DNA from: Gallionella sp.
Lineage (GTDB): Bacteria > Pseudomonadota > Gammaproteobacteria > Burkholderiales > Gallionellaceae
Reading direction: 5' to 3'
Length of the DNA stretch: 21,838 bases
Assembly (NCBI GenBank): GCA_025362155.1
Contig: JANYHX010000163.1
Span: 1 to 21,838 of the forward strand
Of the stretch, positions 8,191 through 21,168 are shown in pieces (the stretch's first letter is position 1; every line of letters starts with the position of its first letter). Below the pieces are notes generated by a model. That model saw only the letters and a list, made by a program, of their open reading frames with translations. It searched no databases and was not told the origin of the DNA. Position numbers and translations under genes: made by a program.

Positions 8191-8265
8191 ATTCTCTGTT
8201 TGCAATTTAAAACATTCAACTGCGCATTTTACGGAACATGCCTGTTGGGGGATACAAAAATTGTA

Positions 8266-8396
8266 TTATTGAGCATTACATAACTCATTACACCGTTCAC
8301 CCTGAGGTATCGAAGGGCGAAATTTTGTACCAGCCTCAGGCTTCGATACCTCAGCCCGAACGGAATGGTTATCGCGAATTATGGAATGCTCAATAA
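8266..8396. repeat. Second MITE-like element, 18-bp terminal inverted repeats
   Basis: Left end ttattgagcattacataa (8266-8283) matches the inverse of the right end (8379-8396) in 17 of 18 positions. An inner inverted pair carries ccgttc-nnn-ctgaggtatcgaag (about 8292-8315 and 8335-8364). The 131-bp element has no coding capacity and fills most of the gap upstream of the kinase operon. The inner motif resembles the ccgttcgccctgagcttgtcgaag motif of the element at 3015-3176, so the two belong to related repeat classes although their ends differ. No target-site duplication is evident. The rest of the 8206-8474 gap shows no other feature I can support. Confidence 0.8.
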
Positions 8397-8474
8397 CATG
8401 ACATAACAGCGGCTCCTCAACACTTCCTCCCGCCTGGGAAGAGTTGGAGAGGAGAAAACGGACAGGAGCTACAA

Positions 8475-8847
8475 ATGAGCAATAAACAAATATTGAACGT
8501 GGCAATTTCTTCACCGGAGGAATCTTTGGCGCACTTCGCCAAGGTGTGGAACTCGGCTGCTGGGCGGCAAGAAAGTCAAGCCTTACAACGGTATCGGCTT
8601 CGAGAGCATCGCGCAGTTTGCGGCGGCACTGACTCCGCAACGCTGGCTGCTCATCAATGCGCTGAAGAGTATCGGCCCCACTTCGATTTACGCGCTGGCA
8701 AAGAAGCTCGGGCGGCATTACAAAAATGTACACACCGACGTTACCGCGCTGGTGCAGTTGGGCATCATCGAAAAGGATGCAGAGGGTAAAGTATTTGTGC
8801 CGTGGGATGAAATCGATGTGAATATGCCGCTGGTGCGGGCGGCTTGA
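8475..8847 (+). pseudogene. Frameshifted winged-helix DNA-binding protein, HVO_A0114-like (antitoxin type)
   Basis: Two reading frames together give one protein. The first (from ATG 8475, with gacaggagct as ribosome site) reads SNKQILNVAISSPEESLAHF and ends its homology at about AKVWNSAA. The next frame, from about 8557, continues LLGGKKVKPYNGIGFESIAQ and runs to TGA 8845-8847, including a helix-turn-helix region (about SIYALAKKLGRHYKNVHTD) and the family end VFVPWDEIDVNMP. Intact family members read straight through at this point, so a small indel near 8557-8562 has broken the gene. Relatives are putative DNA-binding antitoxins often paired with a DUF6516-type toxin; no such toxin is intact here. 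Family name is from memory of the motif pattern. Confidence 0.75.
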
Positions 8848-8923
8848 TACATGCAGTACGATTGAAAAATATTGTGAAGCCGACCTCTTTGACCTCCTTT
8901 GATCCTGAGCCAAAATAGCCCCC

Positions 8924-9331
8924 ATGACATTCCAAGATATTCTCAATTTCGCTAAGGAGTACCCATCCATACTCAACTTGGCCATCTTTTTTATCGGCCT
9001 ATATTTTGGCAATAAACAAGCCATTGAAAGAGACCGAAGGAAAGAGTTCAATGAAATATCCGAAGACGCTTTCATTGCGCTTAACAAACAAATAGAACAA
9101 CTCAAAGTCGGGTTGCCGGGTCAATGTGTTAGTGACTTTCTCCTCATTTACAACTACATTCCTTTTTACAAACGCTGGCTCTTTCGCAGGCATATTGAGA
9201 AATACAAAAATGCACAACAAGGCCTAAGTACATACCATGTAGAATCAGGAACCGTTACTTTCAATCAAGAGAAAATGGTTCAGCTTACTTCCTCAGCAAA
9301 AGTGTTGTTATGCTACCTAAAGCGATGTTAG
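8924..9331 (+). CDS. Small hypothetical protein with one membrane segment
   Basis: A 135-residue protein I do not recognise. One hydrophobic segment near the N-terminus (about residues 14-30, LNLAIFFIGLYFG) is followed by a charged stretch (KQAIERDRRKEF), suggesting a membrane anchor with the rest in the cytoplasm. The body contains a Lys/Tyr-rich region and no catalytic motif. Base composition is visibly more A+T-rich than in the flanking housekeeping genes, which points to horizontal acquisition. Its TAG stop lies inside an attC-like palindrome (9315-9401), as in integron gene cassettes. Start is uncertain, since the ribosome site is weak. It could be cassette cargo of unknown role. Confidence 0.6.
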   Translation: MTFQDILNFAKEYPSILNLAIFFIGLYFGNKQAIERDRRKEFNEISEDAFIALNKQIEQLKVGLPGQCVSDFLLIYNYIPFYKRWLFRRHIEKYKNAQQGLSTYHVESGTVTFNQEKMVQLTSSAKVLLCYLKRC

Positions 9332-9401
9332 AGCGGTCACCGTTCGCTACGCTCTCTGCTCACGCCCTAGCGGGATGCCGCTCAACTTGAAAACGTTAGG
9401 C
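9315..9401 (+). other. Candidate integron attC recombination site
   Basis: The right end is a consensus R' box GTTAGGC (9395-9401), and the next start codon lies 6 bases later, as in gene cassettes. The left end acctaaa (9315-9321) fits RYYYAAC except for its last base. Between them an inverted pair GTTAGAGCGG / CCGCTCAAC (9327-9336 and 9378-9386) pairs with a single extra base, like the bulge in attC stems, and an inner pair CGCTA/TAGCG (9345-9349 and 9368-9372) extends the hairpin. The length of 87 bases is in the normal attC range. No integrase gene is in the window. Confidence 0.55.
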
Positions 9402-9407
9402 ATACCG

Positions 9408-10235
9408 ATGAATAAGGCACTACACATACTTGCGGGGAATTCAGCTCATGTAGATGATCTCGCCGCGGCTTGGGAAACCTCTGGAAAGGCGAACCGCAGT
9501 GTTCCAATGGCTGCTGCAACAGGAGACAACTTTCTTCTTTTCGACTTTGACTCCCTAGCATTCGCTGCATGCGGGGAAATTGCCTCCGATGCGGCGCGTG
9601 ATCCTGATGAAGACCCAAAATATTACTTCTCTGCTCTCAAGTTTTACACGTTCTTTGACATTGACAATAGTGTTTCGCGCATGCACGTAGTCGAAGCTCA
9701 CCAGACATGGCTTACCGACTTTCCTGAATGGAAGTGGATTCAACAGCCTACCCAGGGGCGTCGCCCAGGCTACGCATATAACGCCAAAGTACCCGATGCA
9801 ATTAGCGAAGAACTTTGGGGGTTTGTGCTTGATGCTGTCTTCGGGGCAGAGTGGCACAATCGCGCTCCAGAACTCTGGAATGAAGAGCACCCAGAGGATG
9901 ACACGCAACATTTCTACAACAAAGTATCTCAATCTCTACATGATAGCCACTCGTCAAGACAAGATCGTTTAGCAACTGCCCAAAAAATACCTGATTGCAT
10001 TTCCATTACATCGACTTCATTTCGACGCAATCCAGATGTTGTCGCTGAGGTTTTACTGAGGGCGAACGGAAAATGCGAGGGCTGTCTTCAACCAGCCCCA
10101 TTCGCGCGTGCATCTGATGGGACACCATACCTTGAAGTGCATCATCGTGTCAGGCTTGCAGCGGGCGGCGAGGACACTGTAGCCAATGCTATTGCCTTAT
10201 GCCCCAATTGTCATCGTGCAGCACACTATGCCTAA
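9408..10235 (+). CDS. HNH-endonuclease domain protein, probable gene cassette cargo
   Basis: A 275-residue protein ending in a zinc-stabilised HNH nuclease domain: CEGC (223-226), EVHH (243-246, with the catalytic His) and CPNCH (265-269). The first about 210 residues are acidic, rich in aromatic residues, and match no family I can name; they may recognise substrate. Such proteins act as restriction, defence or homing nucleases, but the target cannot be inferred here. ATG 9408 is preferred over ATG 9375, because the latter begins inside the attC-like palindrome, while 9408 follows the GTTAGGC box by 6 bases. The TAA stop is embedded in a GCCTAAC box (10230-10236), another cassette hallmark. 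Confidence 0.75.
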   Translation: MNKALHILAGNSAHVDDLAAAWETSGKANRSVPMAAATGDNFLLFDFDSLAFAACGEIASDAARDPDEDPKYYFSALKFYTFFDIDNSVSRMHVVEAHQTWLTDFPEWKWIQQPTQGRRPGYAYNAKVPDAISEELWGFVLDAVFGAEWHNRAPELWNEEHPEDDTQHFYNKVSQSLHDSHSSRQDRLATAQKIPDCISITSTSFRRNPDVVAEVLLRANGKCEGCLQPAPFARASDGTPYLEVHHRVRLAAGGEDTVANAIALCPNCHRAAHYA

Positions 10236-10294
10236 CCCGGCACAGTCAAGTGGGACGTGCCGCAAGCGGCACGCCTCTTACCTTTACATTATTC
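10230..10294 (+). other. Candidate attC site at the 3' end of the HNH gene, degenerate right box
   Basis: A perfect R'' box GCCTAAC (10230-10236) contains the HNH stop codon. It is followed by a tcaag L''-like element and a perfect 8-bp hairpin cgtgccgc-aa-gcggcacg (about 10256-10273), then cctcttacctttac. The expected right box GTTRRRY is replaced by attattc (10288-10294), which runs directly into a relic of the rep 3' end. The layout suggests an attC that recombined at, or decayed against, a non-canonical target. Confidence 0.5.
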
Positions 10295-10341
10295 TGCCAC
10301 CTGCTTATTCAGCATCGACTTCAACCTCGCCAGCTTATCCA
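10289..10341 (-). pseudogene. Diverged duplicate of the rep 3' end (last codons)
   Basis: On the reverse strand this reads DKLARLKSMLNKQVAE-stop, against DKLAKLKAMLNKPVTE-stop at the end of the intact rep gene. At DNA level 44 of 53 positions agree with 10997-11049, and similarity stops abruptly beyond 10341. Most differences are silent or conservative, as expected for an orthologue from a related strain rather than a recent duplication. The two copies bracket the addiction module. Confidence 0.75.
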
Positions 10342-10436: not shown

Positions 10437-10646
10437 ATGTTAAACATAGAAAATCTGACACGCACGGAGAAGTTGCGCATGATGGAAGAAATTTGGGATG
10501 ATTTGTCGCATGATTCGGAAACGCTTTCATCCCCGGAATGGCACGCGCAAGCGTTGAAGGATACCGAGCGTGCCCTAGCTGAAAACCGGACGCATTTTGT
10601 TTCCTGGGATGCCGCTAAGAAGATGCTCCGCAACAGCACTCCATGA
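10437..10646 (+). CDS. Addiction module antitoxin (CHP02574 family)
   Basis: A 69-residue acidic protein with the family pattern of putative addiction-module components: LTRTEKLRMMEEIWDDL near the N-terminus and SPEWHAQALKDTERAL in the middle, ending in a Trp-containing tail (FVSWDAAKKML). Family members pair with RelE/ParE-fold toxins, neutralise them by direct binding and usually repress their own operon. An agagg ribosome site (10426-10430) supports ATG 10437. The stop overlaps the toxin start as ATGA. The pair lies between two copies of the rep 3' end, consistent with an acquired module. Confidence 0.85.
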   Translation: MLNIENLTRTEKLRMMEEIWDDLSHDSETLSSPEWHAQALKDTERALAENRTHFVSWDAAKKMLRNSTP

Positions 10647-10936
10647 AAATCGAGGTTCTGAGTATCGCATTGGTTGATATTCAGTCCGGCCAGAATTTTT
10701 ACGAGCAGCAACAGGAAGGATTAGGCGCCTACTTTCTGGATTCTCTATTTTCCGACATTGATGCGCTTTTGCTTTACGCAGGGATACACCAACAGTTTTT
10801 TGGTTATTACCGCGCCCTCTCGAAACGATTTCCCTATGCAATTTACTACCAAGTGAATGAGGAAGTCATTCAGGTGTGGCGCGTATTGGACTGCCGACAA
10901 AAACCATCACACATAGCGGTTGCGCTACGCCCTTAA
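10643..10936 (+). CDS. RelE/ParE-family toxin
   Basis: A 97-residue protein with the RelE/ParE fold pattern: an early helical part (DIQSGQNFYEQQQEGLGAYF), a central PYAIYYQVNEEVIQVWRVLDCR strand region and a C-terminal basic end. ParE-type members poison DNA gyrase and RelE-type members cleave mRNA on the ribosome. This subgroup, paired with CHP02574 antitoxins, is usually annotated as ParE-like, but activity cannot be read from the sequence. It is translationally coupled to the antitoxin upstream and convergent with rep. It looks full length, so the module is probably functional. Confidence 0.85.
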   Translation: MKIEVLSIALVDIQSGQNFYEQQQEGLGAYFLDSLFSDIDALLLYAGIHQQFFGYYRALSKRFPYAIYYQVNEEVIQVWRVLDCRQKPSHIAVALRP

Positions 10937-10944
10937 CCAAGGGT

Positions 10945-10987
10945 ATTTGAAGAATACTTGCCCCGCTTGCCTTCGCCGTCTTCAAAT
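10945..10987. terminator. Candidate stem-loop between the toxin gene and rep
   Basis: Perfect 9-bp inverted repeat atttgaaga (10945-10953) and tcttcaaat (10979-10987), separated by 25 bases, lies between the convergent toxin and rep genes. The stem is A+T-rich and has no clear T-run, so it is only a weak candidate for a bidirectional terminator. Confidence 0.3.
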
Positions 10988-10996
10988 TATTAAGCG

Positions 10997-12994
10997 TTAT
11001 TCTGTTACCGGTTTATTCAACATCGCCTTCAATTTCGCCAGCTTGTCCATGCCTTCATTTTTAGTCACAGTGGGCACCGCATCTGCGTGGCCGCCCGCAT
11101 AGACTAATTCATCTTCCGGCATTTCCTCAATGAAACGGCTAGGCTCGCAGGGTATCCAGTCCTTACCGCGTTTGCGGCGGTTGCAGTAACTGATTTGCAG
11201 GCTGCGCTCGGCGCGGGTGATGCCGACGTACATCAGGCGGCGCTCTTCTTCGATTTGTTTTTCGTCGCTGTCACGGAACGGCAGGATGTCTTCTTCCGCG
11301 CCGATGATGAACACGTGCGGGAATTCCAGACCCTTGGCGGCATGCAGCGTGGAAAGCGAGACGGCATCCGGCTCCTGGTCTTTGCCTTCCAGCATGTTGA
11401 TCAGCGCAATAGTCTGCACCATGGCGATCAATGATTTTTCATCCGCTTCGGCTTTGCGCTTGAGCCAGCCGATGAAATCTTCAACGTTCTTCCACTTGCT
11501 CTCGGCCTGGCGCGGATCATGTGAGTCATAAAGCCAGGTTTCATAGTTGATGGCGCGCAGTAATTCGTCCAACAATTCGCCACAGGACTCTTTATCGGCG
11601 CGATCCTGGATGCGGTTGATGAAGTTGCAGAACAGCATCAATTCTTCATATTGACGCGGCTGCACCTCATGTTCGACCTGTGCTTCAAATGCCGCCTCGA
11701 ACAGGCTGATATGGCGCTCTCCGGCGTAACTGCCGAGCTTTTCCAGTGTGGTGTTACCGATGCCGCGCTTCGGTGTAGTGATAGCGCGAATGAAAGCCGG
11801 ATCATCGTCCGGGTTGGCGATGAGCCTCAAATAGGCGGTGATGTCCTTGATCTCAGCGCGATCAAAGAATGATGTGCCGCCGCTGACGGTATAGGGCACA
11901 CGCTGGGCGCGCAGCTGTTCTTCGAATGCCCGCGACAGGTGATTGCTGCGATACAGGATCGCGTAATCGGAATATTTGGTGCGATGCTCGAACTTGTGCG
12001 ACATCAACTTCATCACCACACTCTCGGCCTCGTGTTCATCATCGCGCGCTGCATAAATACGAATCGCATCACCAATGCCATGATCACTCCATAAATTTTT
12101 CTCGAACACCTTGGTGTTGTGATTGATCAAATGATTCGCCACCTTGAGAATACGTTGCGAAGAGCGGTAGTTCTGCTCCAGCTTGATGACGTGCAGCTTA
12201 GGATAGTCGTCGCGCAGATTGTGCAGATTCGCTATGCTCGCGCCTCGCCAGGCGTAGATCGCTTGGTCGTCATCGCCCACCACAGTCAGCGCGGCGCGCA
12301 TGTCGGCCAGCAGCTTGATTAACTGGTACTGGCAATCGTTGGTGTCCTGATATTCATCCACCAATAGATATCGCAACTTTAATTGCCAGCGCAGCAACGC
12401 TTCGGGATGCTGCTTGAACAGCACTACCGGCAGATGGATCAGGTCGTCAAAGTCCACTGCCTGATAGGCGCGCAATGTTTCCTGATAGCGCGAATAAATG
12501 CGCGCATGCATTTTTGCTTCGTCACTGTCGGCATTTTGAATAGCTTGTTCCGGCGAAACGAATGCGGATTTCCAATTTGAAATTTGCGTCTGCATGTCTC
12601 GGATTTCCTGCTTGTCAGCGGAATTGCTCAACTCGCCGAATATCTTCCAAGTGTCGCTGCTATCGAAGATCGAGAACTGCGGTTTGTAGCCCAACAGTTT
12701 GGCCTCGGCGCGCAGAATGTTCATGCCCAGTGAATGAAAAGTGCTCACCACCAGACCCTTGGTATTGGTGTTTTTCAACAGATCACCGACGCGCGCACGC
12801 ATTTCATTAGCCGCCTTGTTGGTAAACGTGATAGCCGCGATATTGCGTGGCTCGTAGCCACATTGCTCGATCAAATACGCGATCTTGTGGGTGATCACGC
12901 GGGTCTTGCCGCTGCCCGCACCGGCCAGCACCAGCAAAGGGCCGTCGAGGTGCGTAACGGCTTCGCGTTGCACTGCATTGAGCTTGTTTAACAT
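10997..12994 (-). CDS. rep: ATP-dependent DNA helicase Rep (UvrD/PcrA superfamily 1A)
   Basis: A 665-residue 3'-5' helicase that helps replication forks pass protein roadblocks and restart. Superfamily 1 motifs are in order: Walker A GAGSGKT (25-31, Lys30), TFTNKAANEMR (Ia), Walker B DEYQDTN from Asp213, GDDDQAIYAWRGA (III), QNYRS (IV), and the C-terminal LSTLHAAKGLEFPHVF (V) and LMYVGITRAERSL (VI). The length is close to E. coli Rep (about 670). Start ATG 12994 gives the usual LNKLNAVQREAV N-terminus. The gene lies 105 bases downstream of the histidine kinase on the same strand and is convergent with the toxin module. A diverged copy of its last codons lies at 10289-10341. Confidence 0.95.
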   Translation of the reverse strand: MLNKLNAVQREAVTHLDGPLLVLAGAGSGKTRVITHKIAYLIEQCGYEPRNIAAITFTNKAANEMRARVGDLLKNTNTKGLVVSTFHSLGMNILRAEAKLLGYKPQFSIFDSSDTWKIFGELSNSADKQEIRDMQTQISNWKSAFVSPEQAIQNADSDEAKMHARIYSRYQETLRAYQAVDFDDLIHLPVVLFKQHPEALLRWQLKLRYLLVDEYQDTNDCQYQLIKLLADMRAALTVVGDDDQAIYAWRGASIANLHNLRDDYPKLHVIKLEQNYRSSQRILKVANHLINHNTKVFEKNLWSDHGIGDAIRIYAARDDEHEAESVVMKLMSHKFEHRTKYSDYAILYRSNHLSRAFEEQLRAQRVPYTVSGGTSFFDRAEIKDITAYLRLIANPDDDPAFIRAITTPKRGIGNTTLEKLGSYAGERHISLFEAAFEAQVEHEVQPRQYEELMLFCNFINRIQDRADKESCGELLDELLRAINYETWLYDSHDPRQAESKWKNVEDFIGWLKRKAEADEKSLIAMVQTIALINMLEGKDQEPDAVSLSTLHAAKGLEFPHVFIIGAEEDILPFRDSDEKQIEEERRLMYVGITRAERSLQISYCNRRKRGKDWIPCEPSRFIEEMPEDELVYAGGHADAVPTVTKNEGMDKLAKLKAMLNKPVTE

Positions 12995-13099: not shown

Positions 13100-14476
13100 T
13101 TACTTGGCTATCTTCTGTGACAAAAAATCAATTTTTCGCGGGAAGGTTACGCGAAATAATGCTCCTCCCAAAGTTGCCCCTGTTTCAATAACGATGGATG
13201 CGTTATGGTTATGAACAATTTCACTTACGATGGCTAATCCTAGTCCGCAGCCGTCTACCCCCGAGGTATCCAGCCTGTAAAAACGTTCGAATATCCGTTC
13301 CTGTCCTTCTGTTGGAATTCCCGGTCCGCTATCTTCAACTTCCCACGTTATATGGCTGGCTGTGCTGCTACACCGAACCGTAACTACTCCCTCAGAGGGT
13401 GTGTAGCGCAGCGCATTATCTATCAGATTGTTAGTTAATTCTTCCAGCCAAACTGGGTCCCCGTCTACCTCTGCTACGTTCAGCTCAAAGCCGAGATCAA
13501 TGCGGCGCTGCATGGCCAAAGGCATCCAGCGATCTGCTGCATTCCTAGTCAATTCAGCGAGATCAATCTTGGACAAATGCATCTGTTGCGGTTCAAGGCG
13601 ATTCAATGTCAAAAGCTGATGCGCTAAATGGGTAATCCTGCGTGTTCCCGCAACAATTTTTTCGAGGTATTCGCCTGGATCAGGGGAACGCAAAGCCATC
13701 TCCGCTTCGGCTTGTAATGCCGCAATGGGGGTACGTAACTGATGTGATGCATCTGCCACAAAATTCCGTTTTGCATCAAGGGCTGCGGAAAGGCGAACCA
13801 ACAATTCATTCACTTCTGAAAAGATGGGGTAAATTTCTACTGGAATATCATTCAAGGGTAACTGGCTCAAATCAGTATGAGTGCGCCGCACCAATTCTTC
13901 TCGCAGTGGCTGAATGGTTGCCAGCGCGTTACGAACACTTCTGCGTATCATGAAAATAGCTGCGATTATCAAAAGAACTTCTGGCACTAACATGGCCAAT
14001 AAAATTTCACTGACCAATCGATCTCTTTTTAATTTTGTTTCTGCAGATAGAACGACGAAGGGAATTCCATGGTATTCATTAAATAAGGCTGCAACACGTA
14101 CTGGTTTGCCATTGAACACGCCGTCATAATAGAGCTTGTCATTTCCCAGTGGTTTATTAGCGTGTGGCAGTCCGGTATCGCCTGCTACGATCTCCCCACT
14201 GGAATCAACTACTGCATAAAATATCTGGTCATAGCCATCGGTAAGAAGAATTTCTTTAGCGACCACGGGTAATTCCAAATGCACACGACCATCCTGCAAA
14301 TCCACGTGAGCGGCAATAGCCAAGGCAGAGTCCATTAACGCGCGATCATAGGCCACGGTCGCTGCCTGGTGAGCAACAAAATAGGCGACGCCCCCTCCAG
14401 ACACGAGGATCGCTACCATCAGCGGTAGCAACCCTTGCAGCAGTTTTCGCGCAAGACTGAGTTTCTTAAGTCTCAT
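13100..14476 (-). CDS. Sensor histidine kinase with 2CSK_N-type sensor region (TctE/QseC-like)
   Basis: A 458-residue inner-membrane kinase. TM1 is at about residues 12-34, a periplasmic sensor of about 120 residues resembles the 2CSK_N domain (ALAIAAHVDLQDGRV; YAVVDSSGEIVAGDTGL), and TM2 is at about 158-178. A HAMP-like linker follows, then the H-box ASHQLRTPIAAL with His245, the N-box NLIDNAL with Asn354, DSGPGIP, and CGLGLAIVSEI. ATG 14476 overlaps the stop of the upstream regulator, so the pair is translationally coupled; an upstream in-frame start at 14497 is less likely. The cognate partner is the OmpR-type regulator encoded just before. The divergent RND efflux operon suggests the sensed signal is linked to the pump's substrate (inference). 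Confidence 0.9.
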   Translation of the reverse strand: MRLKKLSLARKLLQGLLPLMVAILVSGGGVAYFVAHQAATVAYDRALMDSALAIAAHVDLQDGRVHLELPVVAKEILLTDGYDQIFYAVVDSSGEIVAGDTGLPHANKPLGNDKLYYDGVFNGKPVRVAALFNEYHGIPFVVLSAETKLKRDRLVSEILLAMLVPEVLLIIAAIFMIRRSVRNALATIQPLREELVRRTHTDLSQLPLNDIPVEIYPIFSEVNELLVRLSAALDAKRNFVADASHQLRTPIAALQAEAEMALRSPDPGEYLEKIVAGTRRITHLAHQLLTLNRLEPQQMHLSKIDLAELTRNAADRWMPLAMQRRIDLGFELNVAEVDGDPVWLEELTNNLIDNALRYTPSEGVVTVRCSSTASHITWEVEDSGPGIPTEGQERIFERFYRLDTSGVDGCGLGLAIVSEIVHNHNASIVIETGATLGGALFRVTFPRKIDFLSQKIAK

Positions 14477-15140
14477 CAGTTCCCAAACTATAACCAAGAC
14501 CGCGCACCGTGCGTATGGTCACACCGGATCCTTCCAGTTTTGCGCGTAACCTGGAAATAACTTTCTCCACTGCATTTACTGAATTTATGTCGTCCTGCCA
14601 GCCATAGAGCGCTTGCAACAGCTGTTCCTTGGTGACAATACGGCGAGCGCGAATAGCGATATATTCCAATGCTGCCAACTCCTTGACACTTAATTCGAGC
14701 GGACGATCATTCACCATGGCACGATGACCGGCAGTCTCAATACGCAATGCACCGATAATTATTTCCGGGTCAGCAATGCCATGACTACGGCGTATCAGGG
14801 AACGAATGCGCGCTTCAAGTTCGTTCAGCGCAATCGGTTTGACCACATAGTCGTCCGCCCCCAAATCGAGAAGGCGCACACGTTCGTCCACGGCCTCCCG
14901 GGCGGACAAGACCAGTACAGGCACATGTTTGCCAGATGCGCGTAAACGTCGCAGCACTTCCCCTCCATCTGCATCCGGCAGGCCAAGGTCCAGCAACACA
15001 ACATCATAGTTCTGGCCTGTCAGCCAGTTGTCTGCTTCACGCTTATTTTGAGCCCAATCGATCACGTAGCCTACCTGCTGGAGCGCGCGACAAATTACAT
15101 CCGCCAGGGGATGGTTATCTTCAACTAACAGCAAGCGCAT
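14466..15140 (-). CDS. OmpR/PhoB-type response regulator (QseB/TctD-like)
   Basis: A 224-residue two-domain regulator. The receiver domain has the acidic pair Glu7/Asp8, phospho-acceptor Asp51 in LLDLGLPDADG, the switch Ser79 and Lys101 in VVKPI. The C-terminal winged helix (about 125-222) shows the family pattern LELSVKELAALEYIA and VISRLRAKLEGSGVTIRTVRGLGYSL. It is encoded first in a two-gene operon with the histidine kinase and divergent from the efflux operon by only 96 bases, so it very likely controls that operon and itself. A pair of direct repeats immediately upstream of its start could be its binding site. Confidence 0.92.
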   Translation of the reverse strand: MRLLLVEDNHPLADVICRALQQVGYVIDWAQNKREADNWLTGQNYDVVLLDLGLPDADGGEVLRRLRASGKHVPVLVLSAREAVDERVRLLDLGADDYVVKPIALNELEARIRSLIRRSHGIADPEIIIGALRIETAGHRAMVNDRPLELSVKELAALEYIAIRARRIVTKEQLLQALYGWQDDINSVNAVEKVISRLRAKLEGSGVTIRTVRGLGYSLGTDET

Positions 15141-15143
15141 GAG

Positions 15144-15161
15144 TGGTCAGGAAATGGTCAG
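15144..15161. promoter_or_regulatory. Candidate regulator box: direct repeat TGGTCAG, 11-bp period
   Basis: TGGTCAG occurs at 15144-15150 and again at 15155-15161. The 11-bp period is about one helical turn, the arrangement OmpR-type regulators usually bind. The site lies 4-21 bases upstream of the regulator's start codon, where a ribosome site would be expected but none is visible. Binding has not been shown; this is inferred from geometry. Confidence 0.4.
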
Positions 15162-15194
15162 CAAGAGTATTCATGATAGCAACTTCAATTATGG

Positions 15195-15210
15195 AAGGGT
15201 ACTAACCCTT
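15195..15210. promoter_or_regulatory. Inverted repeat in the divergent intergenic region
   Basis: AAGGGT-acta-ACCCTT is a perfect 6-bp inverted repeat, 27 bases before the efflux operon start. It could be an operator for a dimeric repressor or a small hairpin in the leader. The 96-base intergenic region holds both this and the direct repeat at 15144-15161. Confidence 0.35.
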
Positions 15211-15236
15211 AATGCAATCCACCTTATTTATTAATT

Positions 15237-16814
15237 GTGACTCCCCTCGTGCCGATCGCTCCCAACAATGCTGTGTCCACAAGACTCGCCTTAGTCCCGC
15301 TGCTGATATTAACCGCACTGGCAGGTTGCGCTGCAGGCCCCGATTTTAAAAGGCCAGCCGCGCCGACTGCTAAAGGCTATGCTCCTGCCAGCACCATACC
15401 CGAAGCGACCGTAGCCACTCCCGTGGTCGCTGGCGAGTCCCAGCGATTTAATCCAGCTTTGGATATCCCGTTTGAGTGGTGGACGCTATTCCAGTCGCCG
15501 CAAATTAATTCCATGATGAAGCGCGCATTCGCAGCCCATCCCAGTATAGAGGCAGCGCAAGCCGCCTTGCGTCAGGCTCAGGAGTATGCCGCTGCACAAA
15601 ATGGGTTTTTCTATCCGACAGTCAACGCAAGCTATACGTCATCCAGAAATAAATTGGCTGGAAACATGGGCAGCAGCGCCCCCGGTTTACAGGGTAACGG
15701 TGAATCGATTCAACCTTCCATGGGCCCTGCAAACCCGGTTTATTACAACTTTCATGTTGCGCAATTATCCGTTGGCTATGCGCCGGATGTGTTCGGCCTC
15801 AACCGACGGCAAATGGAATCTGCACAAGCGCAGGTTGCCACGCAAAAATTACAACTGGAGGCAACTTATATCACCCTGGCTTCCAATGTGGTTGCTGCGG
15901 CCATCCAGGAAGCTTCATTGCGCGCTCAGCTCAAGGCAATGGAAAAAATTGTCGCAAGCAGCCGGGAAACGGCGGGCATATTACGCAACCAGCTCAAGCT
16001 GGGTTATGTATCAGGCTTGGAAGTCGCTACCCAGGAATCCGCTCTGGCTTTTGCCCAACAAGCAGTGATTCCATTGCGCAAGCAATTGGAGCAAACGCGT
16101 GATCTGATCCGAGCGCTGACAGGCAATTCCCCCGATCAGGATGTGGAAGAAAAATTCGAACTTGCTGAATTGCATTTACCACAGGAATTGCCACTCAGCC
16201 TGCCGTCAAAAATTGTTGAGCAACGCCCCGATGTGCGTGCAGCCGAGGAACAATTGCATTTTGCCAGTGCCCAGGCCGGCGTTGCCATCGCCAATACGTT
16301 GCCGCAATTTTCTATTACAGCTGCCTTGGGTGGCATGGCATCAGATCCCGGCTGGATGTTCCGCAGCGGTGGCGGCTTCTTTGATTTAACCGCCAATATT
16401 GCTTACACGATATTTGATGGCGGAACCTTACGCGCCAAATCGCGCGCCGCCCAACAGGCCTTGATTCAGGCTGGAGCACAATATCGCAGTACCGTGATCA
16501 CCGCATTGCAAAATGTGGCCGACACCTTGCATCTCATTCAGTCAGATGCTGACGCGCTTAACGCTGCTGCCACTTCCGAAAATGCTGCACAAACCACAGC
16601 CCTCATCGCCCGCAAACAATTTGAGGTCGGGTATATCAATTATCAGACCTTGCTCACTGCCGAACAAAACCATCAACTGTCTACGATCAACCTCATCCAG
16701 GCGCAAACCAATCGCCTCGGCGATACAGCTGCGCTTTACCAGGCGCTGGGCGGTGGCTGGTGGAATCGTACTGAAGCACCGGCAATGCAAACGACCGAAT
16801 CACCCGCTTTATAG
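15237..16814 (+). CDS. RND efflux outer-membrane factor, NodT/CusC-type lipoprotein
   Basis: A 525-residue outer-membrane channel of the TolC/NodT type. The signal peptide ends in a lipobox LAGC (Cys31), followed by AAGPDFKRPAAP, the usual start of a mature lipoprotein OMF. Two efflux-protein repeats follow, with family marks such as PFEWWTLFQSP, LSVGYAPDVFGLNRRQMES, EQRPDVRAAEEQL and NLIQAQTNRLGDTAALYQALGGGW. It would trimerise to form the exit duct of the pump encoded downstream. GTG 15237 is the first start after an in-frame stop at 15210; no strong ribosome site is present, and GTG 15249 is an alternative. It is first in the operon, 32 bases before the adaptor gene. Confidence 0.92.
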   Translation: MTPLVPIAPNNAVSTRLALVPLLILTALAGCAAGPDFKRPAAPTAKGYAPASTIPEATVATPVVAGESQRFNPALDIPFEWWTLFQSPQINSMMKRAFAAHPSIEAAQAALRQAQEYAAAQNGFFYPTVNASYTSSRNKLAGNMGSSAPGLQGNGESIQPSMGPANPVYYNFHVAQLSVGYAPDVFGLNRRQMESAQAQVATQKLQLEATYITLASNVVAAAIQEASLRAQLKAMEKIVASSRETAGILRNQLKLGYVSGLEVATQESALAFAQQAVIPLRKQLEQTRDLIRALTGNSPDQDVEEKFELAELHLPQELPLSLPSKIVEQRPDVRAAEEQLHFASAQAGVAIANTLPQFSITAALGGMASDPGWMFRSGGGFFDLTANIAYTIFDGGTLRAKSRAAQQALIQAGAQYRSTVITALQNVADTLHLIQSDADALNAAATSENAAQTTALIARKQFEVGYINYQTLLTAEQNHQLSTINLIQAQTNRLGDTAALYQALGGGWWNRTEAPAMQTTESPAL

Positions 16815-16846
16815 CCACTTCCCGTGGCATCCGGAGAACATGTCCC

Positions 16847-18040
16847 ATGATTAAATATGAATTACGATTCCGTACCACTGCGATCATCTTGGTAGCAGTG
16901 TGTTTCTCCCAGCTTGCTGCCTGCAGCAAAGCGCCTGTCCCTTTACCTGCTGACGAACCGGTTGTATCAGGAAAAACCATACGTTTTCCTGTCGGCTCAT
17001 CGACAGCGCAACGTTTGCTCACTGCACCAGTCAGGCCCGCACAAAAAAATGTACTCAGCCTACCCGCCCGTATCGTCTGGGACGAAGATCATACAATCCG
17101 GATTACCTCTCCTATAGCGGGGCGTATAGACCAGAACCTGGTACAGATAGGTTCTTCTGTCAGGCCTAACCAGCCTCTGGCTTACCTGAATTCGCCCGAA
17201 CTCGGAAGCGCTCAATCAGACTCGACGCGCGCGCAGGCTGATCTCTCACAAGCCGAACGCAACTTGGTGCGTATCAAGGAATTACTGGCTGTAAATGGTG
17301 TTGCAGGTAAAGATATGGAACAGGCGCAGGTCGATCTGGAGCGTGCCCGCGCCGAGGCTGAACGTACCAGCTTGCGGCTAAAATCATTGGGCGCGGCCAG
17401 CACTGTGGATCAACGTTTTGTTCTCCGTAGCCCCATTGCCGGTGTAGTGGTCGAGCGCAACACCAATTCCGGCATGGAGGTGCGTCCCGACCAATCTAGC
17501 GCCCCACTGTTCGTAGTGACCGACCCGAGTTATTTGTGGTGCTGGATCGATGCACCTGAGCGGGTACTCAATCAGCTGCATCCCGGCATGAAGGTGATTT
17601 TACGCGCCAGTGCGTGGCCAGAAGAAACATTCAAAGCGCAAATTGATTTTGTCAGCGATGCGCTGGATCCCATCAGTCGCACCATTAAATTACGGGCCCG
17701 ATTGCATAACCCTATGCGACACCTTAAAGGGGAAATGTATGTGACCGCCGAGTTGGCTAGTCAAACGCAAGGAGTGCTGGACGTGCCGGCCAAGGCTGTG
17801 TTCCTGAATAATCATGAGCAGCAGGTTTTCATCAAGAGCGCGGAAGGACAGTTTATTCTCAGGACGATAGTGCCAGTAGCCAGCAGCGACCAGTGGGTAT
17901 CAATCGTGCAAGGGTTGAATAAAGGCGACGAAGTGGTAGTCGACGGAGCGCTCTACTTACAGAAATTGTTCGATGAAAATTCGCAGAGCCAGGCGAGTGT
18001 GCAGCCGCCAGCCGCGTTAGTAAAACTTTCCGCCCAGTAA
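16847..18040 (+). CDS. RND efflux periplasmic adaptor (CusB/CzcB-like membrane-fusion protein)
   Basis: A 397-residue lipoprotein-type adaptor linking the inner-membrane pump to the outer-membrane channel. A lipobox LAAC places Cys26 after the signal peptide. The domain order is clear: a first lipoyl half (ITSPIAGRIDQNLVQIGSSV), an alpha-helical hairpin rich in Ala, Glu and Arg (about residues 120-185), a second lipoyl half (LRSPIAGVVVERNTNSGMEV), a beta barrel and a C-terminal membrane-proximal domain. No His-rich metal-binding extension is seen, unlike some CzcB proteins. It lies between the OMF and the pump, with 14 bases to the pump start. Confidence 0.92.
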   Translation: MIKYELRFRTTAIILVAVCFSQLAACSKAPVPLPADEPVVSGKTIRFPVGSSTAQRLLTAPVRPAQKNVLSLPARIVWDEDHTIRITSPIAGRIDQNLVQIGSSVRPNQPLAYLNSPELGSAQSDSTRAQADLSQAERNLVRIKELLAVNGVAGKDMEQAQVDLERARAEAERTSLRLKSLGAASTVDQRFVLRSPIAGVVVERNTNSGMEVRPDQSSAPLFVVTDPSYLWCWIDAPERVLNQLHPGMKVILRASAWPEETFKAQIDFVSDALDPISRTIKLRARLHNPMRHLKGEMYVTAELASQTQGVLDVPAKAVFLNNHEQQVFIKSAEGQFILRTIVPVASSDQWVSIVQGLNKGDEVVVDGALYLQKLFDENSQSQASVQPPAALVKLSAQ

Positions 18041-18054
18041 GCAGGGAAACTAAC

Positions 18055-21000
18055 GTGATCAATCGAATCGTCCGTTTCGCCCTGACTCAGCCAATATTTG
18101 TGTTGTTGGGTACAGTATTTTTTATATTGGGTGGCATCCTTGCTTTCAATAATTTACCCATTGAGGCTTTTCCTGATGTGTCAGACATCCAGGTAAATGT
18201 AGTTGCACAGTATCCGGGACATGCCGCTGAGGAAGTAGAAAAACAGGTCACCATTCCCATTGAAGTCGCCATGTCAGGCATGCCGAACACGGTACGCATG
18301 TTCACCCATACCCAGTTTGGGCTATCGTTCATGATGATCACGTTCAATGACAAGACCAATGACAAGGAAGCGCGTCAGCAGGTGTTTGAGCGGCTCCGCG
18401 GCATTGATTTACCGCCAGGGGTAGAGCCTGATGTCGAGCCGTTATCAACTTCGATCGGCGAGATTTTTCGTTTTCGTGTTCAAGGCGACCATCTGAATTC
18501 GCGTCAGCTACGCGAGATCGAGGAATGGGTGGTGGAAAAAGCACTTAAAAAAGTACCGGGCGTTGCCGACGTTGTGTCGATGGGTGGTGCTATCAAGCAA
18601 TATGAAGTTAATCCAGACTTGGCGCGTATGCGTGATGCAAAGCTCACACTTAGTCAATTGTTTGGCGCACTGTCACGCGCCAATGCAAATGCTGGCGGGG
18701 GCGCAGTAGAACAAGGTCGCCAACAGTTTCTGGTTCGCTCACTGGGCTTGTTCAAAACATCGGCCGATATTGAACGGGTGGTGGTTGGCGATAACGGCAA
18801 GGGCGTACCGATTCTGGTGCGCGATGTAGCCAGTGTGAACGAGGCTAATGCGCCGGTTCAAGGCTTGGTCGGGCAAGACAATTCTGACGATATCGTCAAC
18901 GGTCTGGTGCTAATGCGTAAGGGAGACAATCCTTCTGAAGTATTGAAAGGTATAAAGCGGACTGTTGCCGAATTAAATGCTCACGGCTTACCGGTGGGTG
19001 TGCAGCTCAAGCCCTATTACGATAGGCAATGGCTGATCGACAAGACCTTGCACACCGTGTTCGGCAATTTGCTGGAAGGGGCATTGCTGGTCACCGTCGT
19101 ACTTCTGTTGTTTCTGGGCAACCTGCGCGCCGCGTTAATTGTGGCGAGTATCATTCCTTTGGCCGTGCTATCCACTTTTATTGGACTCACATTCCTCGGG
19201 ATGCCAGCCAACTTGCTGTCCCTGGGGGCGATGGACTTTGGCATCATCGTCGACGGCGCGGTGATTGTGGTAGAAAACGTATTTTTGCGACTGGGTAGTT
19301 TGAGTGATGAAGCCCAGCAAGATTTGAAGCAACGGATGCGCACCATATACGAGGCGGTGATCGAAGTAGGACGACCTACCTTGTTTTCGATGCTGGTAAT
19401 TATCGCGGCACACATTCCTATCTTCACCCTGCAACGCGCCGAAGGTCGTATCTTTGCCCCTATGGCGTTTTCGGTCACCTCGGCGCTGATAGGCTCGCTG
19501 ATTCTATCGCTTACGCTGGTGCCGTTACTGTGCCTGTGGTTGTTACGTGACCGCATACCGCACCACGATAACCGTTTGTTGTTATGGTTCAAGAGACTCT
19601 ATGAACCGGCATTCAAATGGGCAGTGGCTCGCCCCGGCAAGGTGATCAGTGTAGCGCTATTGTTATTGGTGGCAGCGCTTGCTTTGGGCAGCCGACTCGG
19701 TACTGAATTTCTTCCTGAACTCGACGAAGGATCGATCTGGGTCAACGTGTCCTTACCTCCCTCTGTCTCACAGGCCGAAGCTAACCTGGCGGCGCACCGT
19801 ATTCGAGCAGCCTTGCACAGTGTTCCGGAGGTCAACACGGTGATATCCAAGTTCGGTCGGCCCGATGACGGAACTGATCCCAAGATATTTAATTCAGGCG
19901 AATTTTTTGTGGAGCTCAAGCCTGAGTCATCCTGGCGTTCGGGTTTGGACAAGGCGCATATTATTGAGCAGATGGATCACGCGGTTTCTGCATTACCTGG
20001 CATTGAAACTTCCTTTTCTCAGCCCATTCGCGACAACGTATTGGAGAGTATTTCTCAAATCGACGGGCAAATCGTCATCAAAGTCCATGGGGATGATTTG
20101 ACCCAGTTGCGCGCCATTGGCCGTTCTATCGTCGGACAAGTTTCCAGCGTGCCTGGCGTTTCGCGAGCGTACATCGATCGGGACGGTGAATTACCGCAAC
20201 AGGTCATCAATATCGACCGGGATGCGGCTGCCCGTTATGGTATCAACGTAGGTGACATACAGGACACCATAGAATCTGCACTGGCTGGAAAGGCTACGAC
20301 AGAATTATGGGAAGGCGAGCGGCATTTCTCGGTGGTCGTGCGTTTGAGTGAACCACAGCGTGCGCTCGACAAGCTGGGTAGCTTGCTGATAGCCGCGCCC
20401 AGCGGAGCGCAAGTTCCTCTCAATGAACTTGCCCATTTTAAACAAACCCTCGGCGCACTGGACATTGCCCGGGAGAATGGACAGCGCGTAGTTTCTATCG
20501 GTATTTTTATTCAAGGGCGCGACATGGGTAGTGTGGTGACCGACATGAAATCGCGGGTCGAGTCAAATGTCAAAATCCCCAATGATGTAACCATAAGCTG
20601 GTCGGGCGAATTCGAGAATCAGGAACGTGCGATGGCACGCCTGGCGGTGGTAGTACCCTTATCTATTCTGCTTATTTTTGTTTTGCTGTTTGATGCCTTC
20701 GGCTCATTCAGAAGCGCACTGCTGATAGTGGCCAACATCCCGTTTGCATTGATAGGCGGTATCGTGGCGTTATTTGTCACCGGCATACCCTTATCGGTCT
20801 CTGCTGCCATCGGATTCATCGCGCTGTTCGGCCAGGCGGTACTGAACGGTGTCGTGATGGTGTCGGTATTTAACCAGCTGATCGAAGCCGGCCATACGCC
20901 TGAGCAAGCCGTGCATAAAGGCGCCATGTCACGCTTGCGCACTGTACTGATGACCGGCTTGCTAGCGATGTTTGGCCTTTTACCAATGGCACTGTCACAT

Positions 21001-21168
21001 AGCATCGGCGCGGAGACGCAGCGGCCACTCGCGGTAGTAGTGATCGGCGGCCTTATTAGCGCCACACTATTAACACTATTGGTGCTTCCATCGGCATATT
21101 TGTGGACCGTAAAACGCTATGGCACTCTTAAAAATTCGGCTCATGACCGCGCGCTTGTCATTGAATAG
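18055..21168 (+). CDS. RND efflux pump, CzcA/CusA (heavy-metal) class
   Basis: A 1037-residue inner-membrane proton antiporter with the RND layout of 12 membrane segments and two large periplasmic loops. The start FALTQPIFVLLG leads to NNLPIEAFPDVSDIQV, a heavy-metal-RND mark. In TM4, MDFGIIVDGAVIVVEN carries Asp394, Asp400 and Glu407, matching the acidic triad of CzcA rather than the Asp pair of drug pumps. The segment SFSQPIRDNVLESISQIDGQIVIKVHGDD also resembles CzcA; a CusA-like methionine relay is not obvious, so a divalent cation is more likely than Cu/Ag, though the substrate is unproven. GTG 18055 follows a caggga ribosome site. It is the last gene of the operon. Confidence 0.93.
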   Translation: MINRIVRFALTQPIFVLLGTVFFILGGILAFNNLPIEAFPDVSDIQVNVVAQYPGHAAEEVEKQVTIPIEVAMSGMPNTVRMFTHTQFGLSFMMITFNDKTNDKEARQQVFERLRGIDLPPGVEPDVEPLSTSIGEIFRFRVQGDHLNSRQLREIEEWVVEKALKKVPGVADVVSMGGAIKQYEVNPDLARMRDAKLTLSQLFGALSRANANAGGGAVEQGRQQFLVRSLGLFKTSADIERVVVGDNGKGVPILVRDVASVNEANAPVQGLVGQDNSDDIVNGLVLMRKGDNPSEVLKGIKRTVAELNAHGLPVGVQLKPYYDRQWLIDKTLHTVFGNLLEGALLVTVVLLLFLGNLRAALIVASIIPLAVLSTFIGLTFLGMPANLLSLGAMDFGIIVDGAVIVVENVFLRLGSLSDEAQQDLKQRMRTIYEAVIEVGRPTLFSMLVIIAAHIPIFTLQRAEGRIFAPMAFSVTSALIGSLILSLTLVPLLCLWLLRDRIPHHDNRLLLWFKRLYEPAFKWAVARPGKVISVALLLLVAALALGSRLGTEFLPELDEGSIWVNVSLPPSVSQAEANLAAHRIRAALHSVPEVNTVISKFGRPDDGTDPKIFNSGEFFVELKPESSWRSGLDKAHIIEQMDHAVSALPGIETSFSQPIRDNVLESISQIDGQIVIKVHGDDLTQLRAIGRSIVGQVSSVPGVSRAYIDRDGELPQQVINIDRDAAARYGINVGDIQDTIESALAGKATTELWEGERHFSVVVRLSEPQRALDKLGSLLIAAPSGAQVPLNELAHFKQTLGALDIARENGQRVVSIGIFIQGRDMGSVVTDMKSRVESNVKIPNDVTISWSGEFENQERAMARLAVVVPLSILLIFVLLFDAFGSFRSALLIVANIPFALIGGIVALFVTGIPLSVSAAIGFIALFGQAVLNGVVMVSVFNQLIEAGHTPEQAVHKGAMSRLRTVLMTGLLAMFGLLPMALSHSIGAETQRPLAVVVIGGLISATLLTLLVLPSAYLWTVKRYGTLKNSAHDRALVIE

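Follow-up and report, generated by a model that had tools for sequence, protein, structure and literature searches.

The window analyzed here, a 21,838-nt stretch of Gallionella sp. DNA (contig JANYHX010000163.1), very probably contains an integron cassette that lies in a chromosomal attC cluster lacking an integrase, or CALIN, carries a homologue of the EVE-HNH type IV restriction enzymes, and is preceded by a probable second cassette (Table 1). The HNH gene stands between two attC-type sites, both on the same strand. A GTTAGGC box at 9395-9401 is followed six bases downstream by the ATG at 9408, and the TAA stop (10233-10235) is contained in a GCCTAAC box at 10230-10236. These boxes, each within a palindrome (of 87 and 65 bases), had been described in a sequence-only reading of this DNA, and both the letters and the lengths of the two sites agree with that description. 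The left border of the cassette in Table 1 follows the crossover between G and TT in attC that is given in excerpts of PMC10127599.

Table 1. Coordinates of the features at the cassette locus
Feature	Position	Strand	Details
Candidate first cassette ORF, 135 aa	8924..9331	+	No Pfam family; ends within site 1
Candidate attC site 1, 87 nt	9315..9401	+	R'' ACCTAAA; L'' GTTAGAGCGG; L' CCGCTCAAC; R' GTTAGGC; one extrahelical base
HNH gene cassette (very probable)	9396..10288	+	Starts at the site 1 crossover (G^TT) and ends with site 2, where the border is approximate
EVE-HNH protein, 275 aa	9408..10235	+	EVE domain, residues ~1-150; linker; McrA-type HNH module, residues 157-275
attC site 2, 65 nt	10230..10294	+	R'' GCCTAAC over the HNH stop; L''/L' stem-loop
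3'-end fragment of a UvrD/Rep helicase gene, 53 bp	10289..10341	-	Begins at its stop codon; adjoins site 2

The small ORF in front of the HNH gene had been proposed as a further cassette. Its end does fall inside site 1, but a left border was looked for and not found; the ORF is probably a first cassette, placed before that of the HNH gene. Its G+C content is 39%, versus 53 to 54% for pepA, valS, and rep. The homologues found number 19, itself included, and only one of 158 genomes of the family, its own, contains a match.

The identity of the attC sites was assessed with a covariance model, R1, built from 33 hand-picked attC sites at 11 intI loci of the same family, none of them from the window. 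The 11 loci come from a set of 20 stretches, of which 19 surround intI genes in genomes of the family and the twentieth extends a neighboring stretch. In the training stems, 89.5% of cells were paired, compared to 75.3% in shuffles, and 100 two-sided changes were present, compared to 39.9; two of five covariation measures (pairs with a two-sided change and further pair types) were not above the shuffles. With filters off, R1 ranked site 2 first in the window (10242-10287; 34.4 bits, E = 8.6e-7, model positions 11 to 56 of 63) and site 1 second among the 10 matches listed (9.9 bits, E = 0.91); the third-ranked match scored 9.2 bits, and when only 2.2 kb was searched, the E value of site 1 was 0.092. 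The controls were clean: across 30 helicase loci (145 kb, E ≤ 1) the sole match was site 2 of the window itself, and a set of 45 loci surrounding relatives' helicase and kinase genes (368 kb, E ≤ 0.1) yielded none. Over the 20 intI stretches (325 kb), the model found 92 matches, which include the 33 training sites by construction. Rfam had no matches at gathering scores within the window. Site 2 is securely an attC, although its right R' half reads ATTATTC, not GTTRRRY, and is thus non-canonical.

Site 1 is identified only weakly: the architecture of an attC is present, but the score alone is not significant. R'' has one mismatch, R' is exact, and nine L pairs surround one extrahelical base. 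A strict scan for this architecture, designed after site 1 had been seen, matched the window at this place only and had zero matches in 770 kb of background strand-bases; the scan is insensitive, since at its loosest setting only 4 matches were obtained in intI loci. The bottom strand of site 1 folds into the R and L pairs, but with an ordinary energy (z = -0.25; 81 of 200 shuffles were as stable), whereas that of site 2 is low (z = -2.75; 2 of 200). A loose palindrome score has many matches in the window and does not single out site 1, and some longer sites near intI genes are similar to its 3' half. We infer that site 1 works as an attC. The sequence-only reading, which had proposed an HNH cassette flanked by two attC sites and had suggested a covariance search and a bottom-strand fold as checks, is confirmed in that R1 ranks the two sites first and second in the window; the checks bear out site 2 in score and stability, and site 1 in its pairing and extrahelical base but not in its score or stability.

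No intI gene over the TIGR02249 cut-off was found beside the window's sites or anywhere in the assembly of the same genome (2.2 Mb in 330 contigs, 87.8% complete), where the best of four tyrosine-recombinase matches reached 84.6 bits against a cut-off of 265. Further attC sites were detected by R1 on other contigs of this genome, three on C18, two on C315, and one on C221, in addition to those on the window's contig, C199; one on C63 is doubtful (E = 0.49). That scan scored 150 of 747 first-look candidates, so these counts may miss sites. The proposal of a cassette cluster without an integrase is supported across the assembly as a whole. A complete integron, with intI beside the array, was not found in this incomplete assembly. 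IntegronFinder 2 demands at least two attC sites for a CALIN (excerpts of PMC9024848), and with at least two sites and no intI nearby the locus is a CALIN, a class that depends on accepting site 1 as attC. The CALIN reading is supported by a 90% identical HNH module on C315, which sits after two attC sites. Within the family, intI exceeds the cut-off in 84 of 158 genomes, and attC sites at E ≤ 1e-4 occur in 68 of 76 genomes of the genus. Two genus genomes assembled as single contigs, G076 and G077, carry 17 and 11 attC sites, and in neither does an intI match exceed the cut-off; other genus genomes with attC and without intI over the cut-off were also seen. A search of the open-licence literature for integrons in this lineage returned no papers.

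The N terminus of the HNH protein, described earlier as unrecognized, can in fact be recognized, by a fold comparison of residues 1 to 159, as an EVE (PUA-superfamily) domain. The C terminus matches Pfam HNH and is of the McrA type (E = 7.1e-23 to E. coli McrA, 6ghc). H245, H246, N260, H269, C223, C226, C265, and C268 are invariant in 11 sequences, the window's included, and we take them to be the nuclease histidines, the asparagine, and the zinc cysteines of the HNH module. The structure model is poor in the HNH half, with block means of at most 54 from residue 161 on. Both the N-terminal EVE domain and the C-terminal HNH nuclease of EVE-HNH proteins are present; as for the NEco domain of McrA, the N terminus matches EVE folds, and similarity in sequence to 6ghc is confined to the HNH part. 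Together, the EVE sensor fold and the McrA-type HNH point to modification-dependent restriction. Judged from sequence and modeled fold, the cargo is most likely a putative VcaM4I-like modification-dependent (type IV) restriction enzyme, which would probably cut chemically modified DNA such as phage DNA; the earlier "perhaps defensive" can be strengthened to probably defensive.

VcaM4I itself (6yex) is an EVE-HNH modification-dependent restriction endonuclease (excerpts of PMC7897488). The window protein differs from it in its likely cassette-borne location, in an identity of 11% over the aligned part, and in an HNH sequence for which a match was found to McrA and not to VcaM4I. With E. coli McrA (EcoKMcrA) it shares the HNH module and the layout of sensor plus HNH; the sensor of McrA, however, is NEco (excerpts of PMC7145662), whereas that of the window protein has an EVE-type fold.

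The HNH module recurs behind different N termini. A homologue search returned 3,885 proteins, of which the best 120 were listed; among these matches, nine full-length relatives (63 to 81% identity) keep the EVE part, a tenth (48%) has a distant form of this part, and other relatives share only the last ~118 residues (75 to 88%) and have other N termini. We compared 201 proteins (the 120 listed homologues, including the window's, 80 from genome loci, and one further copy from the same genome). An N terminus of at least 50 aa is present in 196 of them, and these form 40 single-linkage BLAST groups, an upper bound, since remote homologues may be split and a few entries repeat a protein already present from another source. 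At a module identity of at least 75%, 32 proteins fall into 5 N-terminal groups. On a module tree made by a quick method (196 proteins, 119 columns), the 12 largest N-terminal groups require 35 label changes, against a minimum of 11 and a shuffled mean of 110.4. Few of its branches are well supported (18 of 191 inner ones), and repeated exchange of the N terminus is therefore suggested only.

The second copy in the same genome, on C315, has a module 90% identical to the window's and a last 345 nt that is 89% identical, with a front at 23% identity (E = 1.7e-5). The idea that this front is an unrelated domain, forming a sixth group, was rejected; it is a distant relative of the window's. The copy is frameshifted and comes at the end of the order Mrr-type restriction gene (PF04471), attC, another ORF, second attC, HNH copy; this second cassette cluster (L115:7674-10071) adjoins the ribosomal protein genes of L33 and L28. 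An attC of its own was sought after the C315 copy, and nothing was recognized past GCCTAA.

Among the best 80 of 373 genome loci with the module, R1 detected an attC at the HNH stop or no more than 60 nt past it (E ≤ 0.0041) in six (L140, L141, L142, L188, L196, and L207); at a seventh, L198, one in this range had an E value of 0.28. The six loci represent five N-terminal groups, and the window is a further group. The L140 module, with an attC where its reading frame stops, shows 83% DNA identity to the window's; L140 is the same as the family genome G130 over the 800 nt compared, so the two were counted once; module identity at the other five is only 56 to 67%. A cruder palindrome score of at least 9 was reached at 10 of the 80 module loci versus 42 of 1,805 other ORF ends there; four of the ten are loci found by R1, and L161 and L208 scored above 14. 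The stop lies within RYYTAAC at 6 of the 80 versus 20 of the 1,805, with L145 and L151 lacking an attC. Since most of the 80 loci show no attC, the module represents a wide family that enters cassettes and is not exclusively cassette-borne. The whole protein was matched at E ≤ 0.001 in 19 of 158 family genomes, where, beyond its own genome, only G130 (80%) and G066 (72% over 64 residues) exceeded 60% identity. At E ≤ 1e-25, the module was found in 4 of 399 genomes across the order and 3 of 369 across the class, its own included. Plasmid records contain the module family at up to 63% identity (best 25 of 98 matches), and among relatives of the module that carry a name, the nearest comes from a Nitrosomonadales MAG.

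We tentatively propose, as something possible and short of probable, that integron cassettes house a combinatorial restriction family, in which an McrA-type HNH module with its stop in the attC R'' is joined to exchangeable N-terminal sensors. If this were true, cassette arrays would act as a workshop fusing new sensors to a fixed nuclease-plus-attC tail, and hosts would gain changing specificities against modified phage DNA; integrons would then make new restriction specificities, not merely store genes. Darracq, Littner, and colleagues reportedly described anti-phage cassettes of chromosomal integrons in 2025. That cassettes carry defense genes was discovered only recently, in work on Vibrio and mobile integrons; excerpts of the review PMC12409362 report defense cassettes that include size-reduced type II and IV restriction genes, and contain no mention of one HNH module behind different N termini; a Treponema HNH endonuclease cassette is listed in a portion of PMC9137128. 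In the open-licence literature, no cassettes sharing an HNH-attC tail under different sensors appeared among the matches listed. What is new here is the HNH module recurring behind different fronts; CALINs, defense cassettes, and EVE-HNH enzymes were already known. In Xanthomonas, roughly every second genome contains CALINs outside the main locus, according to parts of PMC12444791. The present locus is like known CALINs in that attC sites flank genes with no intI nearby, but it has two sites only, of which the first is weak and the second, adjoining a helicase-end fragment, is non-canonical in its right half. It adds a probable EVE-HNH restriction cassette to an integron-rich lineage in which some genomes carry attC sites without a detected intI.

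At the kinase loci of relatives, one or more of the valS, tusA, and rhodanese genes occur on one side at a distance of at most 1.5 kb in 29 of 29 cases (valS in 25), and an M48-peptidase-like gene lies on the other, upstream side in 27 of 29; the one tested belongs to Pfam Peptidase_M48. The neighbors of the helicase vary among relatives. The kinase and helicase neighborhoods are thus otherwise separate, and the cluster sits where both meet. Site 2 is followed by the helicase-end fragment, a toxin-antitoxin pair (10437-10936), and the intact helicase gene; the pair consists of a PF09720 antitoxin and a ParE-like toxin that scored below its cut-off. The fragment is 83% identical to the end of that gene (10997-11049) and up to 87% identical to helicase ends of other species. 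Neither a relative with an empty site nor, at the kinase and helicase loci of relatives that were searched, any cassette or attC was found. According to the sequence-only reading, a gene order shared by many genomes but lacking the palindromes would speak against a cassette; the order in relatives differs. It is plausible that the insertion took place at a secondary site, and the position of the last site against a helicase 3' end suggests that the target may have been non-canonical. A third attC considered behind the toxin-antitoxin pair (10937-11003) was rejected: R1 found nothing there, and the loose scan flagged the other strand only.

How the cluster came to this place could be explained in another way, which we rate only slightly short of an even chance: it may have been brought in, along with a helicase end of foreign origin, through homologous or illegitimate recombination at a rearrangement junction and not through an integrase acting at a secondary site. 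The fragment's closer match to some other species than to its own helicase would fit such an event, as would the different neighbors of kinase and helicase in the relatives examined, but the fragment starts where the R' of site 2 would end a cassette, as insertion by an integrase gives. It is also quite possible, if less than probable, that a complete integron exists, with intI in the missing part of the assembly, and that the window is a detached cassette piece. Against this stand the interior position of the sites on a 21.8-kb contig, where a kinase and a helicase gene flank them and no intI is adjacent, the spread of attC over four separate contigs, and the attC-bearing single-contig genomes G076 and G077 with no intI above the cut-off; the fragmented and incomplete assembly, the C18 array adjoining a transposase-like gene extending to the end of its contig, and the presence of intI in more than half of the family genomes searched are what make it worth considering.

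The two remaining alternatives concern the nature of the sites and of the protein. The ordinary folding energy of site 1 and the many matches of loose palindrome scans would suit palindromes that are chance repeats or terminators, with an ordinary HNH gene next to them, but the fit of site 2 to family attC sites in both sequence and structure, the clean controls, and the occurrence of attC after relatives of the module elsewhere make this very improbable. The EVE sensor fold and the McrA-type HNH likewise argue that the protein is unlikely to be a homing-type or cassette-forming nuclease instead of a defense enzyme, even though it has been suggested that cassette endonucleases play a part in forming cassettes (excerpts of PMC9137128). 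In the preferred reading, an integron cassette in a CALIN, an integron integrase supplied in trans, or one from an ancestral integron since lost, would have placed the cassette through recombination of the attC bottom strand in its folded form. The predicted EVE domain may flip and read a modified cytosine, the HNH domains as a dimer may cut the DNA, and the targets could be phages with modified DNA or methylated incoming DNA. We infer the mobility and expression of the cassette and the substrate and defense role of its protein.

Other observations were made nearby. In 5 of 16 related stretches compared, a DUF3025 gene adjoins the helicase; in the window, the region between the two (13100-21168) presumably holds histidine kinase, response regulator, and RND-type efflux genes, going by ORF translations. 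At 8475-8848 lies an HVO_A0114-type gene (PF25212, in one frame), which seems frameshift-broken when read frame by frame. A 137-nt palindromic repeat at 8262-8398 occurs in 14 places in the same genome with 78 to 100% identity and is MITE- or REPIN-like; one of its copies is ~1 kb from the C315 cassettes.
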